Positions 24,751-32,116 of a DNA stretch of 34,231 nt are shown one piece after another (the stretch's first letter is position 1; each line of letters opens with the position of its first letter). Origin of the DNA: Candidatus Peribacteria bacterium RIFCSPLOWO2_12_FULL_55_15 (GTDB lineage Bacteria; Patescibacteriota; Gracilibacteria; Peribacterales; Peribacteraceae); assembly GCA_001789045.1 (NCBI GenBank), contig MFYG01000011.1, positions 1-34,231 on the forward strand. Reading direction: 5' to 3'. The translations under genes and the position numbers were made by a program. The notes under the pieces are model-generated. The model was not told the DNA's origin, did no database searches, and worked only from the letters and a program-made list of their open reading frames with translations.

Positions 24751-25752
24751 TCATTTTTTCACTGCCTGATCAAAATCAGAAATGTATTTTTTGTCTTGCT
24801 CTTTCCTGTATTTCAATAATTCGGTTTCTGCTTTTTCCTCCGCCATTGCCGCACTGATGGAACCGGCGTTTTCCAATAGCTTCTTTTCGCTGAGCTTGAG
24901 GAATTCATCGAGCTTGTTCACCCAATCGGCCATTTTCATCGGTCGTTCGTTGCTCGCCTGCAATTCCGCGAAATCCAGGTAGAGAGAAACAATGAGGTTC
25001 AGCTGTTTTAATTCTTTCTCGGACAGGTAGTTCTTCGCCACTTTGACATCGCCCGCCGTGATATACCTACTCTTGAAGCTCGTCAGTCCCATCATCGGTT
25101 TGGAACTGTCGGCTCGTTTATGGATGATCTCGGCAGCCGTATGCCCGTGAACGGCATAGTGCATCTTGTTCTGCACCGTCGCGAAGAACCGTTGCGTGAG
25201 GAGATCGTCTTTCCGGTAATCGATGCTCGTCGCATAAATATCCGTCACTTTCTGGTAAAAGTTCCTCTCGCTCGACCGGATATCGCGAATGCGCTGGAGA
25301 AGCTCCTCAAAATGCCGCGCCCTTCCTCCACCCTGTTTCAGCCGCTCATCATCCAGCGCGAAACCTTTCACGATGTACTCCCGGAGCCGCTGCGTCGCCC
25401 AGATGCGGAACTGCGTCGCTGTTTTTGATTTGATGCGATAGCCAACCGACAGAATGACGTCGAGATTGTAGCACTTAAGCGCCCGCTTGACCTCTCGCAC
25501 ACCTTCGGATCGAACTTGTAAGAATTCCTTACACGTTGCCGCTTCAGCCAGTTCTGCCTCATCATAAATGGAAGCGATATGCTGGGTGATGTTCTGCGGC
25601 GTTGTCTGAAACAACTCCGCTATCGCCTTTTGCGGAAGCCATACAGTTTCATTCTCCAACCGGACTTCGATACGCGTTGAACCGTCTCCAGACTGATAGA
25701 GGATGACGGCGCCAGTTGGCTCCTGGGGCGATGCGGGGGAGGGGTTTTTCAT
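24751..25752 (-). CDS. RhuM family protein
   Basis: The 333-residue protein matches the RhuM family closely. The N-terminal block 'TVWLPQKAIAELFQTTPQNITQHI' is DNA-binding-like. 'CYNLDVILSVGYRIKSKTATQFRIWATQRLREYIVKGF' follows (split over strand and helix), then a helical C-terminal half with 'LYLDFAELQA' and 'DWVNKLDEFLKL'. RhuM was named in Salmonella pathogenicity islands and is common on mobile islands near Fic and toxin-antitoxin genes. Its biochemical activity is unresolved. A strong promoter and a perfect inverted repeat lie directly before the gene, suggesting autoregulation. It stands between the nuclease and the Panacea pair, all on the minus strand. Confidence 0.92.
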   Translation of the reverse strand: MKNPSPASPQEPTGAVILYQSGDGSTRIEVRLENETVWLPQKAIAELFQTTPQNITQHIASIYDEAELAEAATCKEFLQVRSEGVREVKRALKCYNLDVILSVGYRIKSKTATQFRIWATQRLREYIVKGFALDDERLKQGGGRARHFEELLQRIRDIRSSERNFYQKVTDIYATSIDYRKDDLLTQRFFATVQNKMHYAVHGHTAAEIIHKRADSSKPMMGLTSFKSRYITAGDVKVAKNYLSEKELKQLNLIVSLYLDFAELQASNERPMKMADWVNKLDEFLKLSEKKLLENAGSISAAMAEEKAETELLKYRKEQDKKYISDFDQAVKK

Positions 25753-25850: not shown

Positions 25851-26222
25851 TTATAAAAGATCTGTGACTCGTGAAAGAGCGAGTTTGTTCATATCCCTGT
25901 CACGGTAGTTATCGATGTGCGTTGAAATGCACAGGAATACAATCGTTGCCCCACTTTGCGCGAACAATATCCGCGGGTATTGATTCGGTCGCAAACCCGA
26001 ATGGATCACGGGTAGTTCAGTCTTCCACATCATCCACACTTCATTTTGCGTCACACGATGAAGCTTACCTGGCGCAATCCGCGGCTGCGGTGCGGTTGGG
26101 TGAAAATGAAGCTCGCACAATTGTTGGAAACCCTCCAGACTTTGTCTGATATGTCACATTCGTTTCCTCTCCAAAGCGGCGATTTCGATCTCGAAACCTT
26201 CATGAAATAGAAACGAAATCAT
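25851..26222 (-). pseudogene. Toxin-like gene coupled to Panacea antitoxin, interrupted by in-frame TGA
   Basis: ATG 26222 overlaps the Panacea stop as ATGA. Its frame reads MISFLFHEGFEIEIAALERK, then R-M-TGA at codon 23. It then continues without another stop for 100 codons: HIRQSLEGFQQLCELHFHP ... PNQYPRILFAQSGATIVFL ... STHIDNYRDRDMNKLALSR. The later part has the strand-strand-helix texture of RelE/ParE-type toxins ('PRI.FA.SG.TIVFL'), but I cannot name a family securely. A TTG at 26120 could restart an 89-residue product. Because Panacea antitoxins are normally encoded next to their toxin, a nonsense-inactivated toxin is the simplest reading. A base-call error or a real readthrough remain possible. 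Confidence 0.6.
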
Positions 26223-26710
26223 AGATCGCTGAAGTCCGTTCCTCGATAGTATGTGAATTCGTATGGTACCTCTTGGTTCGGCTTTGCGGCGGAATAGGGT
26301 GCTTCGGCGTGTGAGAGATCTTCCAGTTGCTTTCCAGTCAGTTGGCCGTAGCGAATGATGATCCTTTGGAGCATGCTTTTCTCATCCGGACTGAAAACCG
26401 AAAGATCCGGTGCGACGAGGCACCGATACACTTCTGTCGGGTTGTAGTCCGGACGTTCCTTCACCTGCTTCACAACAAGCATTTTCTTACTCACCATCTC
26501 CTCTGTCACCGACCCGAGAGCCGATGGCACAGGCCCCATAGGCAGCGCCTTGTATACATCGCCGGTAATCGATCGCTGGTGCTTCTCATAGAAATCAAAA
26601 TCCACAAAATACAGAAGCTTCGCAAGTTTTTTCTTCCCGCGCACCTCGCCCTGTAACTCCCGGCACGAGTACAGCACGGCATTCTGATACTTTTTCTTGT
26701 GGAGCGCCAT
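26219..26710 (-). CDS. Panacea (SocA/DUF4065) domain antitoxin
   Basis: The 163-residue protein shows the Panacea pattern 'KKLAKLLYFVDFDFYEKHQRSITGDVYKALPMGPVPSAL', written here as split blocks: the KL.KLLYF.D, G..Y.A...GPV and later F...E......I...YG..T...L..L.H...P motifs. Panacea domains neutralise many unrelated toxins by direct binding. This makes the immediately coupled downstream frame (ATGA overlap at 26222-26219) its likely partner. A 15-bp palindrome over the start codon and a promoter upstream suggest self-regulation. It sits divergent from fic. Confidence 0.88.
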   Translation of the reverse strand: MALHKKKYQNAVLYSCRELQGEVRGKKKLAKLLYFVDFDFYEKHQRSITGDVYKALPMGPVPSALGSVTEEMVSKKMLVVKQVKERPDYNPTEVYRCLVAPDLSVFSPDEKSMLQRIIIRYGQLTGKQLEDLSHAEAPYSAAKPNQEVPYEFTYYRGTDFSDL

Positions 26711-26749
26711 GATGTCATCATGATATCAACAATGGACAGTTTGTGCCAA
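26708..26749 (-). promoter_or_regulatory. Promoter and start-codon palindrome of the Panacea operon
   Basis: Minus strand: -35 TTGGCA (26749-26744), 18-bp spacer, -10 TATCAT (26725-26720), 9 bp before ATG 26710. The perfect 15-bp palindrome CATGATGTCATCATG (26708-26722) spans the start codon and part of the -10, a plausible operator for the antitoxin or complex. Confidence 0.55.
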
Positions 26750-26781
26750 GGGAAAAACTAAAAAAATGATAGACTGTAGTC

Positions 26782-27435
26782 ATGCTTTCTCGACACACAT
26801 CACATCCTTCGAGATATTCTGTTGGCGGAAGTGAAAATGAGTACATGGATAGGAAGAGAAAGATCATGAAAAATCTGAAGGGCGTCCGGAGCCTGCGATC
26901 GTTGCAGAAGGCCGAGGAAGATGCACTCGTTGTCGCCTATGACAAACTTTTTTCAACGGTACGCTCCGACACGCCGATGACCGTCGATCTGTTGAAACAC
27001 GTTCACAACTCCATCTTTGTTGATCTCTATACATGGGCTGGGAAATTCCGAACTGTCGCTATCAGCAAGCCCGGTGTGACGTGGCCTCCCCCGGATTATC
27101 TGGAAGAAGCCATGCGCTCATTCGAGCGGAACATCCTCCGAAAATATTCTGCTCATTCACTCAATGATGATGAACGCTTCTGTGAAGCAGTCGGGCATGT
27201 TCAAGGAGAATTTCTGGCCATCCATCCGTTTCGGGAAGGGAATGCCCGCACAATCAAGCTCTTCACGGATCTCCTCGCCGCGCAGCTGAAGCGTCCCATC
27301 CTCCGCTATGACATGACGAAGGAGGGACAACGGCAGTACATCGATGCGGCCAAGGCCGCGCTCCTGAAACAGAACTACATTCCCATGCAGAGGATTATCG
27401 AGAAGGCTCTTCGTCGGTCTACGCTCCTTTCGTGA
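26782..27435 (+). CDS. Fic/Doc family protein (AMPylase-type)
   Basis: The 217-residue protein has the Fic core, with the active-site motif AIHPFREGNART (His148; consensus HxFx(D/E)GN(G/x)R) preceded by a helix GEFL. The flap region 'WAGKFRTVAISKPG' is also typical. Fic enzymes transfer AMP or related groups to protein hydroxyls. No inhibitory (S/T)xxxE(G/N) helix is visible in the protein itself, so an outside antitoxin would be expected. The second half of the active motif has Ala where Gly is common, yet Arg is kept. Start 26782 follows TAGACT by 6 bp (leaderless geometry). ATG 26845 (MDRKRK) is an alternative. It overlaps the convergent downstream gene by 17 bp. Confidence 0.85.
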   Translation: MLSRHTSHPSRYSVGGSENEYMDRKRKIMKNLKGVRSLRSLQKAEEDALVVAYDKLFSTVRSDTPMTVDLLKHVHNSIFVDLYTWAGKFRTVAISKPGVTWPPPDYLEEAMRSFERNILRKYSAHSLNDDERFCEAVGHVQGEFLAIHPFREGNARTIKLFTDLLAAQLKRPILRYDMTKEGQRQYIDAAKAALLKQNYIPMQRIIEKALRRSTLLS

Positions 27436-29082: not shown

Positions 29083-29115
29083 GCCTGCAGGCAGGCTCTC
29101 CCCGGTGGGAGGGTG
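29083..29115. repeat. Palindrome pair: CTGCCTGCAGGCAG hairpin and repeat copy D
   Basis: GCCTGCCTGCAGGCAGGC is a perfect 18-bp palindrome. It is joined directly to CTCTCCCCGGTGGGAGGGTGA, a shortened form of the dispersed GC-rich element. It lies upstream of the rplU promoter. Confidence 0.7.
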
Positions 29116-29129
29116 ACAAAAAAAAGGCA

Positions 29130-29158
29130 TTGTTCGGCAGACATATCACGACTAGAAT
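29130..29158 (+). promoter_or_regulatory. Promoter of rplU
   Basis: -35 TTGTTC (29130-29135), 17-bp spacer, -10 TAGAAT (29153-29158). ATG 29170 begins 11 bp later, so the predicted leader is only about 5 nt. Confidence 0.65.
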
Positions 29159-29169
29159 CTCCTGGGACT

Positions 29170-29493
29170 ATGCAGCCATTCGCCATCGTCGACATTGCTG
29201 GCTTTCAGGAAAAGGTAGAGAAGGGGATGAAGCTCCATGTCCCCCACCTTTCTGGAGAAACAGGAACCTTCGTTAAATTCGAAAAGGTATTCCTCCTTGT
29301 AAACAGTGATGACGACATTCACATCGGGAAACCTACTCTCGCAGGAACAGTGGTAGAGGCTAAAATCCTCAGTCATGGAAAGGACAAAAAAATCCGTGTC
29401 TTCAAGATGCGTCGGCGCAAGCGCTTCCGCCGTCTCAAGGGGCACCGGCAACAGTACACAGAGATCGAAGTGACTGGGATCACGACGCCGTAA
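29170..29493 (+). CDS. rplU: 50S ribosomal protein L21
   Basis: The 107-residue protein starts at ATG 29170 (MQPFAIVDIAGFQEKVEKG); the frame further upstream lies in the promoter. L21 features are 'FAIVDIAGFQEKVEKGMKL', 'LVNSDDDIHIGKPTLAGTVV' and the rRNA-binding basic run KMRRRKRFRRLKGHRQ near the C-terminus (family consensus Kyk.rk.yrr..GHRQ..t.v.i). It usually precedes rpmA (L27), but here the next gene is tgt on the opposite strand, 12 bp away. The mRNA is predicted nearly leaderless. Confidence 0.92.
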   Translation: MQPFAIVDIAGFQEKVEKGMKLHVPHLSGETGTFVKFEKVFLLVNSDDDIHIGKPTLAGTVVEAKILSHGKDKKIRVFKMRRRKRFRRLKGHRQQYTEIEVTGITTP

Positions 29494-29500
29494 AGGAAAA

Positions 29501-29553
29501 CCCCTCACCCTTGCTCGCTACTGCTCGCTTCACCATCTCCCGCGGGGAGAGGA
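29501..29553 (-). repeat. Dispersed GC-rich repeat, copy E, with inner insert
   Basis: CCCCTCACCCT and CTCCCGCGGGGAGAGG are the two ends of the element. Between them lies TTGCTCGCTACTGCTCGCTT, a GCTCGCT-type direct repeat. Almost all of it is translated as the C-terminal 15 or so residues of Tgt (PLPAGDGEASSSEQG). Confidence 0.8.
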
Positions 29554-30656
29554 GGTTCTTTTACTTGCGCTATCCCTTCCCGCAACTTTTGAAAGAGATT
29601 GAGCGTCACCGCCATATTCTGTAAGCACGCGAGCGTTTCACCAAGCCGTTCGCCGCTGCGGAGGAGGTGGCAGAGGTACGCCCGGCTGTACTGCCGGCTC
29701 GAGAGGGCGGGGGAGTGGGCATCAATCGGTGTGTGATCCGAGAGATACTCCTGCTTCGTGATCCGAATGTGCGTTCCATCTGAAAGATAGAGAGTCCCAT
29801 GTCGCCCTTCCCGCATGGGAAGCACACAATCGAACATGTCGATCCCTTTTGCAATGCACCGAGGAATCTGCGAAAGCTTTCCAACACCCATGAGGTAGCG
29901 AGGCTTGTTCACTGGGAGGAGTGGGCACACGACATCGAGAATCTCATACATGTCTGCCTCACCCTCACCGACGGCAAGCCCCCCAATCGCATAGCCATCG
30001 AACTCCATCGCTACGAGTTCCTGTGCGCATTTCTCCCGCAAATCGCGCTCGAGGCCGCCTTGGACGATGGCAAAGAGAAGGGGAAATAAGATGTCACCCT
30101 GAGGGATCCGCCCGTACAACTCCTCATGCCATCTTTTACACTCCTCCGCCCATCGCAATGTCCTCTCAACCGCCACCACAATTTCACTCCGCTTTGCCGT
30201 CGACGGCGGGCATACATCAAGACACATGATCATGTCCGCTCCAAGCTTGTGCTGTATTTCCATGGCCTCCCGGGGACCGAGGAAACAGCGCGACCCATCG
30301 AGGTGGGAGCGGAATGTCACGCCGTCATCCGTGACGGACCGGCAATCGCGGAGGGAGAAGACTTGGAATCCGCCAGAGTCCGTGAGGATCGGCTTCGGCC
30401 ACCCGATGAATGCATGTAAGCCACCGGCATCATTGATCACCTGTTCCCCCGGTCGCAGATGGAGGTGGTATGTGTTACAGAGCATCGCCTGCGCACCGAG
30501 AGCAAGAATATCCTCATGACGGACCCCCCGCATCGCCCCACCCGTCGCAACTGGAAGAAAAAATGGGGTCTCGATGGTACCGTGCGGCGTCGTAAGATTT
30601 CCAAGCCGACCTGAGGGCGATGTTTGAAGAAGAGCAAAAGGCATACGGCGCGTCAT
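29505..30656 (-). CDS. tgt: tRNA-guanine transglycosylase lacking the zinc site
   Basis: The product is 383 residues from ATG 30656 (MTRRMPFALLQT), 7 bp after clpP. The fold is that of bacterial Tgt: TDSGGFQVFSL (base-binding Asp), the 'FAIVQGG' and 'GYAIGGLAVGE' motifs, and the nucleophile Asp in GIDMFDCVLP. Tgt swaps guanine-34 for preQ1 in tRNAs of His, Asn, Asp and Tyr. The zinc module is altered. Where relatives read CxCxxC before RxYSRAYLHHL, this protein reads SPALSSRQYSRAYLCHL, giving Ser, Ala and Ser; the fourth ligand His, 26 residues on, is Gln (CLQNM). All four ligands are gone while the rest is kept. The C-terminal tail is encoded by repeat copy E. Confidence 0.94.
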   Translation of the reverse strand: MTRRMPFALLQTSPSGRLGNLTTPHGTIETPFFLPVATGGAMRGVRHEDILALGAQAMLCNTYHLHLRPGEQVINDAGGLHAFIGWPKPILTDSGGFQVFSLRDCRSVTDDGVTFRSHLDGSRCFLGPREAMEIQHKLGADMIMCLDVCPPSTAKRSEIVVAVERTLRWAEECKRWHEELYGRIPQGDILFPLLFAIVQGGLERDLREKCAQELVAMEFDGYAIGGLAVGEGEADMYEILDVVCPLLPVNKPRYLMGVGKLSQIPRCIAKGIDMFDCVLPMREGRHGTLYLSDGTHIRITKQEYLSDHTPIDAHSPALSSRQYSRAYLCHLLRSGERLGETLACLQNMAVTLNLFQKLREGIAQVKEPPLPAGDGEASSSEQG

Positions 30657-30663
30657 ACCTCGT

Positions 30664-31260
30664 CTACTTTCCCCCCACAATCCGATCGATAAGTCCGTAC
30701 GCAAGCGCCTCCGCGGAACTCATGAATTTGTCACGCTCCGTATCGAGACTAACCTTCTTGATATCCTTCCCAGTATGCTTGGCAATGAGTTCATTGAGAA
30801 GATTCTTCATGCGGATGATGTGATCAGCATGGATCGCAATATCCGTTGCCTGCCCCTCCGCTCCTCCAAGAGGCTGGTGAATCATGATTTCACTATGATG
30901 AAGAGCAAAACGTTTTTTCTTTGCCCCCCCCATCAGAACAAGCGCCGCTCCCGACGCCGCCATCCCGAGACACACGGTCGATACATCCGGCTTCACGTGC
31001 TGCATCGTATCGTAGATGGCAAGGGTGGAACTCACCTGTCCTCCGGGAGAGTTGATGTAGAGCGTAATGTCCTTCTTCTGATCTTGCTTCTCGAGAAAAA
31101 GAAACTGAGCAATGATGGTATTCGCTACATCATCATTGATGGGAGTCCCGAGGAATACGATGCGCTCCTCGAGCAAGCGTGAATAGATATCGTACACACG
31201 CTCTCCGAACTGTGTTTTCTCGATGACCGTGGGAATGAGGAAATTTTGGAGTTGCTGCAT
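30664..31260 (-). CDS. clpP: ATP-dependent Clp protease proteolytic subunit
   Basis: The 198-residue protein starts at [10 protein letters not shown] (31260); the longer frame runs into miaA and is rejected. The catalytic triad is clear: Ser103 in [10 protein letters not shown], His128 in IMIHQPLGG and Asp177 in TERDKFMS, with exactly the spacing of E. coli ClpP (25 and 49 residues). YINSPGG is the substrate-strand motif. ClpP forms 14-mers that degrade proteins fed by Clp ATPases, none of which is encoded here. The gene is driven by an extended -10 promoter with leaderless geometry and is followed by tgt after 7 bp. Confidence 0.96.
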
Positions 31261-31267
31261 CTTCTGT

Positions 31268-31276
31268 ATTGTACCA
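31268..31276 (-). promoter_or_regulatory. Extended -10 promoter of clpP
   Basis: Minus strand TGGTACAAT: extended TG-N followed by -10 TACAAT (31273-31268), 7 bp before ATG 31260. No convincing -35. The mRNA would start at the start codon. Confidence 0.6.
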
Positions 31277-31297
31277 AAATCCGAGCTCCCATACAGT

Positions 31298-32116
31298 ATG
31301 CAAAATTGTATGAATATTGTATGGCAGCAACGCCTCGCATCACATCTTAAGAAAGCCAAAAAGCCCCTTCTTGTCCTCCTCGGCCCCACTGCGAGCGGGA
31401 AGACGGTGTTTTCGATTGAGGTGGCGAAGTGGGTGAATTCCCTCCCACATGCCCCTCATCCGAACCCTCTCCCGCGGGGAGAGTGGACTCAAGCCGAAAT
31501 CATCAACGCCGACTCACGCCAGCTCTACAAATATATGGACATCGGCACGGCAAAAATTACAACAGAAGAAATGGAAGACATTCCCCATCATCTTTTCTCC
31601 ATCCTTGATCCAAAGGAAAAAGTCACCGTCGGCTGGTACAAGCAAACGGCGGAGCGCACGATCGATGATGTTCTCTCCCGTGGGAATATTCCAATCCTCG
31701 TCGGCGGATCGATGCTCTACATCAGTGCGGTGACGGATGGGTACGTCTTCACGGGGAAGGGGGGGAAGCATGTTGTCCCCGTTCCCTACGATATCCTCAT
31801 CCTCGGTCTCTCACGGCCGCGGAGTGAGCTTGTACAGCGGATTGGGGAGAGGACGAGTCATCTATTGCAGAATGGTTGGATCATAGAGGTCGAATATCTC
31901 CTCACCCACGGCTATGCCGTGCACGACCTCGGCATGAAAAGCCATGGCTACCGAGAGATTGCAGAGTGGATTCTCGATGGGAAAAACGCAGAAAAGCTCC
32001 CCGTGCTCACGGAACAAATCAATGCCGCCACACGACAATATGCCAAACGGCAGATGACGTGGTGGAAGAGAGATGAGAGAATTCAGTGGATTCCATGCAC
32101 CTCACTACCCCCCTAA
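31298..32116 (+). CDS. miaA: tRNA dimethylallyltransferase MiaA with repeat-derived insert
   Basis: The product is about 272 residues from ATG 31298 (ATG 31310 also possible). The P-loop is [29 protein letters not shown] is the tRNA/DMAPP motif, and '[14 protein letters not shown]' and '[14 protein letters not shown]' follow. MiaA adds isopentenyl to A37. Between the P-loop helix and EIINADSRQ sits a foreign 17-residue stretch ([17 protein letters not shown]), encoded by repeat copy F, where relatives have 2-3 residues. The mid region between LYISAV and YDILILGL is unusually short, missing about 35 residues of the normal tRNA-contact insertion. It is divergent from clpP and overlaps recG by about 22 bp. 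Confidence 0.92.
31451..31487 (-). repeat. Dispersed palindromic repeat, copy F, inside miaA
   Basis: CCCCTCATCCGAACCCTCTCCC-GC-GGGGAGAG, written here in two arms, matches copies B and E. It is in frame within miaA and adds HPNPLPRGE to the protein. Confidence 0.85.

Follow-up and report, generated by a model that had tools for sequence, protein, structure and literature searches.

The stretch of DNA analyzed here, referred to as the window, comprises 34,231 nucleotides and belongs to a family of very small, uncultured bacteria with named members 'Candidatus Peribacteria'. Near its end it contains the following genes:

29113 to 29493, plus strand: rplU (L21), convergent neighbor of tgt, kept in the family
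29505 to 30644, minus strand: tgt, 379 aa, predicted zinc-less tRNA-guanine transglycosylase (Tgt), based on profile matches, the alignment to the Z. mobilis enzyme and the family alignment
30664 to 31389, minus strand: clpP, upstream of tgt on the same strand, the order clpP-tgt being kept in the family

The longest open reading frame at the tgt locus (29505-30704, minus strand) opens with a TTG at 30704, while the family alignment begins at the ATG at 30644, located 19 bp past the clpP stop codon. The TTG is probably a too-early start, and the ATG is preferred. Searching this frame with the TIGR00430 profile gave 423.9 bits (cut-off 306.75) over positions 3-349 of the 368 profile positions, and PF01702 gave 432.5 bits, whereas archaeal TgtA (TIGR00432) reached only 120 bits against a cut-off of 350. 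Judged by these profiles, the frame is a full-length bacterial Tgt. It is the sole Tgt of the 896-kb source genome (96% complete), in which no second, zinc-bearing copy was found. The synteny clpP-tgt-rplU is conserved across the Peribacteria family; the neighbors of tgt are clpP, rplU and miaA, and dpd genes are not among them. QueC is absent from the source genome. The TIGR00430 score speaks to some degree against an identity as DpdA.

The catalytic machinery of the predicted enzyme appears complete:

29829 to 29831, minus strand: Asp272, the catalytic nucleophile (Asp280), conserved

Together with D272, the residues D89 and D143 (D280, D102 and D156 in Z. mobilis, where D102 is catalytic like D280 and D156 recognizes the base) are 100% conserved in the family, as are Q195, GGLAVGE, R278 and R281 (Z. 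mobilis Q203, G229-E235, R286 and R289). A preliminary description of the window had stated that the nucleophile Asp, the VQGG motif and the overall length were retained, and all three points agree with the alignments. The base pocket GGLAVG with Cys158 (Z. mobilis numbering) is of the preQ1 type in all family members examined; motifs distinguishing preQ1- from queuine-type pockets have been described (PMC10723273, PMC4425180). The queuine-type pocket GG[LS][AS]G, with Gly for Val233, is absent and was rejected, as all family members examined carry GGLAVGE. The combination Val233Gly and Cys158Val of the queuine pocket of eukaryotic QTRT1, a member of the same superfamily that matches the window Tgt at an E value of ~1e-80, was likewise not found in the Peribacteria Tgt. 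A structural prediction, which had been proposed as a check on the former zinc loop, gave a confident Tgt fold: the AlphaFold2 model has pLDDT values of 94-98 over residues 290-360, the former zinc subdomain, and can be superimposed from end to end, this subdomain included, on Z. mobilis TGT (Z 45.7, rmsd 2.0, 352 residues), although AlphaFold folds proteins confidently with or without need of a metal and the model is no proof of zinc-independent stability.

The zinc site has been described as a hallmark of TGT, found in the bacterial enzyme and kept in both eukaryotic subunits, QTRT1 and even the catalytically dead QTRT2 (PMC6165067, PMC4425180). The Peribacteria Tgt differs in this respect, as the window protein lacks the structural site CxCxxC...H. 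Ligand positions were read from a gap-free phmmer alignment of the window Tgt to Z. mobilis TGT, in which C318/C320/C323/H349 correspond to S311/A313/S316/Q342, and the numbering was checked separately:

29712 to 29714, minus strand: codon TCC, Ser311 at ligand Cys318 of Z. mobilis, Ser in 20/20 family genomes
29706 to 29708, minus strand: codon GCC, Ala313 at ligand Cys320, Ser, Ala or Val in the family
29697 to 29699, minus strand: codon AGC, Ser316 at ligand Cys323, Ser in the family, Gly in two members
29619 to 29621, minus strand: codon CAG, Gln342 at ligand His349, Gln in 20/20 family genomes

The claim that Ser, Ala, Ser and Gln occupy all four ligand places was thereby confirmed.

An alignment of Tgt across Patescibacteria, also proposed earlier as a check, revealed the same four-position loss throughout the family. 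Tgt was present in 20 of the 23 family genomes searched (exceptions G001, G007 and G016), and all four ligands were missing in each of these 20 genomes, which represent 20 genera, following the pattern S-[SAV]-[SG]-Q. Neither Ser311 nor Gln342 varies at all, despite a mean pairwise identity of ~65% in the family. With the zinc columns removed before tree building, the Peribacteria Tgts still form one clade (SH-aLRT 100). Sequencing or assembly error, or misalignment, as the origin of the unusual residues might be invoked for a metagenome-type genome in 24 contigs; as the substitutions are shared by 20 separate genomes and the flanking RxYSRAYL aligns without a gap, this explanation is virtually impossible and was dismissed, and the earlier caveat of sequencing errors in the region does not apply. 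From alignment and tree, the ligand loss in Peribacteria is one ancient loss that has become fixed, neither decay nor sequencing error.

Queuosine metabolism in the family is sparse. QueA, QueG, QueH and QPTR/YhhQ are, like QueC, all absent from the source genome. Among the 23 Peribacteria genomes QueA occurs in 4 and QPTR/YhhQ in 11, always alongside tgt, and QueG and QueH were found in none of the 23. The queuosine pathways of Peribacteria thus stop short, at preQ1 or epoxyqueuosine. The end product of the family is likely preQ1-tRNA made from a salvaged base, and at most epoxyqueuosine in the four genomes with QueA, as far as gene content indicates. The proposed situation resembles that of Bartonella, where preQ1-tRNA is formed from a salvaged base (PMC10723273), and salvagers often have no recognised transporter (PMC11130926).

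This scarcity could mean that tgt is a decaying gene, kept by chance in reduced genomes stripped of most queuosine metabolism. Tgt is dispensable within Peribacteria, with three genomes lacking the gene and the copy of G002 being frameshifted, and QueA is missing from most family genomes. Against decay, the catalytic and base-pocket residues are fully conserved over the 20 genera at the identity given above, the replaced ligand positions are conserved in themselves, and QueA and YhhQ are found only where tgt is present. Decay is therefore quite improbable. The split Tgt of G002 (L026, G002:C51) extends over two frames, due to a frameshift or an assembly error, and still has the zinc-less motif.

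We also considered that zinc or another metal might be bound at a substitute site formed by residues such as H304, H319, H326 or C338. Only in this family is H304 invariant, 91% of the members have His at position 319, and C338 is common within the motif TIAC. Nevertheless, residue 319 is Tyr in the window Tgt, several members have Gln, Ser or Ala in place of C338, and H326 corresponds to the usual interface His that every Tgt has. H304 is thus the only family-specific conserved Cys or His near the old zinc site, and the family alignment contains no conserved replacement set of three or four Cys/His residues, nor any conserved trio, making a substitute site very improbable. The Cys of YLCHL (residue 325), named in the preliminary description as a potential stand-in ligand, varies in the family alignment; residue conservation there ruled out this and other Cys/His residues as filling the site.

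A general loss of zinc proteins was not supported either. In the same Peribacteria genomes L36 and DnaJ retain their zinc cysteines, and zinc scarcity therefore does not explain the ligand loss. The zinc ribbons of TopA (PF01396) were absent in 15/15 family genomes and also in 6/14 controls, a neutral result. Two genomes of the same class carry three topoisomerase I zinc ribbons (PF01396) each, and in most Peribacteria (L283, G000:C9 and relatives) L36 has an insertion of 4-5 residues that follows the CxxC and precedes the third Cys. In the ribosomal proteins L31, L33, L36 and S14, Cys-minus forms have lost the structural zinc ribbon while keeping the fold, and usually represent paralogue switches under zinc scarcity. 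The Peribacteria differ from these cases, having one tgt copy and other zinc sites intact in their genomes.

Loss of ligands is not restricted to this family. In a sample of 165 other Patescibacteria, non-random and mostly with one to a few genomes per family, 143 Tgts were CCCH, 12 lacked between one and three ligands, and 10 lacked all four. Full or partial losses occurred in at least five lineages besides Peribacteria. The zinc-less Tgts of Falkowbacteria (L031, SFLN) and of three further records (L156, SILQ; L174, QASA; L195, SLLN) likewise lost the ligands and kept the catalytic Asps; they represent lineages separate from Peribacteria, with unrelated replacement residues. In the larger of two trees eight changes of the state without ligands were required, all eight forced by well-supported branches, and in a mixture-model tree five such changes were forced outside Peribacteria; both trees were quick ones and the exact number is soft. 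Among the best matches of the query beyond Patescibacteria nearly all were intact (72 intact rows classed as 'other', including two named Uhrbacteria), and partial loss was seen in four, two from Erythrobacter (SCSH) and two from Verrucomicrobia. In the Erythrobacter Tgts (L090 and L103), members of a culturable group, two of the four ligands are now Ser. That the ligands were lost independently in other Patescibacteria suggests that the zinc site may be dispensable.

The preliminary description had argued that the four ligands went all at once rather than in turn. While the four-position loss holds for all 20 family members with Tgt, its simultaneity was not established: the argument fails in general because relatives of the same class show intermediate states, namely AGSH (L009), ICSH (L123), VHSH (L128 and L135) and SSCH (L142). 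On these sequences, stepwise and simultaneous loss appear equally likely.

In addition to the ligand positions, several residues distinguish the Peribacteria Tgt:

29637 to 29735, minus strand: family-specific residues around the old zinc site, H304, P312, H319 (Tyr here), R333 and E336, from a conservation comparison
29814 to 29816, minus strand: Met277 for Thr285, beside the nucleophile loop, with 22/22 rows of the family having Met
29868 to 29870, minus strand: Gln259 for Asp267, Gln in 22/22 family rows

The first of these, together with S311, S316 and Q342, form a cluster conserved only in the family, around the former zinc site and at the dimer interface. The substitutions T285M and D267Q lie near the nucleophile; they have become fixed in Peribacteria and are seldom seen in other Tgts. 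Thr285 is present in 98% of other Patescibacteria with an intact zinc site. The T285/D267 region contacts the tRNA anticodon loop. In other lineages T285M and D267Q are unlinked to zinc loss. M38 was at one point assigned to Val45 of the ribose-34 pocket; this was dropped, as the numbering gives Val51, beside the interface residue Lys52.

Compared with the Z. mobilis and E. coli TGT (TIGR00430), the Peribacteria enzyme shares the fold, ~42% identity, the catalytic Asp pair, GGLAVG with Cys158, and the interface residues Tyr330 and His333; it differs in the four missing ligands, T285M, D267Q and I340R, a Glu at A343, and His or Tyr at W326. Such differences raise the question of a changed specificity for tRNA or another nucleic acid, in which zinc loss would be accompanied by remodelling of the dimer interface and of the anticodon pocket and by different targets. 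The family-wide M277 and Q259 would fit this, as would R333, E336, H319 and M38 at or beside the interface positions W326, E339 and K52. However, R286, R289, Y330, H333 and all of the base pocket have changed little or not at all, and the other zinc-less Patescibacterial Tgts mostly retain Thr/Ser285 and Asp/Asn/Glu267; zinc loss therefore does not need T285M or D267Q. A change of targets as the main explanation is unlikely. The earlier suggestion of changed specificity thus found no support for the inserted base, GGLAVG and Cys158 being kept in the sampled members, but may apply on the tRNA side, where T285M and D267Q are specific to the family. A combined reading, a metal-free Tgt with a polar network in place of zinc whose remodelled interface and anticodon region (T285M, D267Q) would alter quaternary structure or tRNA choice, is tentative and rather unlikely.

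Judged from the alignments and the model, the protein has an intact Tgt barrel, a full complement of catalytic residues and a preQ1 pocket, with neither zinc ligands nor a substitute set, and this holds family-wide. We consider it probable that it represents a functional bacterial-type Tgt working without structural zinc. The preliminary description had favored zinc independence over decay, and the fixation over 20 genera, the invariant replacements, the active site, the synteny and the predicted fold speak for this. Against a functional zinc-independent enzyme count the dispensability of Tgt within the family, the lack of any recognised source of the base in the source genome, and E. coli Tgt, in which mutation of zinc ligands reduces zinc and activity. 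Zinc normally pins the C-terminal subdomain to the barrel, and tRNA binding and the homodimer interface rely on the scaffold so formed. In the zinc-less Tgt polar contacts may hold this subdomain instead: Ser311-Pro312 could cap a short helix, together with Ser316 and Gln342, and a pair of Arg333 and Glu336 on the adjoining helix might add to the hold. The enzyme would then act on GUN tRNAs, replacing their G34 by a 7-deazaguanine base obtained through salvage, most likely preQ1, via the usual covalent Asp mechanism.

In the freely accessible literature searched, nothing relevant was found on a zinc-less Tgt or on queuosine in CPR or Peribacteria, and the zinc-less Tgt appears to be new as a variant of a known enzyme. 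Peribacteria and the further lineages suggest that Tgt catalysis can do without the metal. Their Tgts offer natural constructs to address the role of zinc in folding, dimerisation or tRNA docking, and CxCxxC seems unsafe as a criterion for annotating Tgt in Patescibacteria.

Elsewhere in the window (26219-27435), a Panacea/SocA-like antitoxin gene on the minus strand is divergent from a Fic/DOC gene on the plus strand, and a RhuM-family gene at 24751-25752 joins this pair in a toxin-antitoxin-like cluster.
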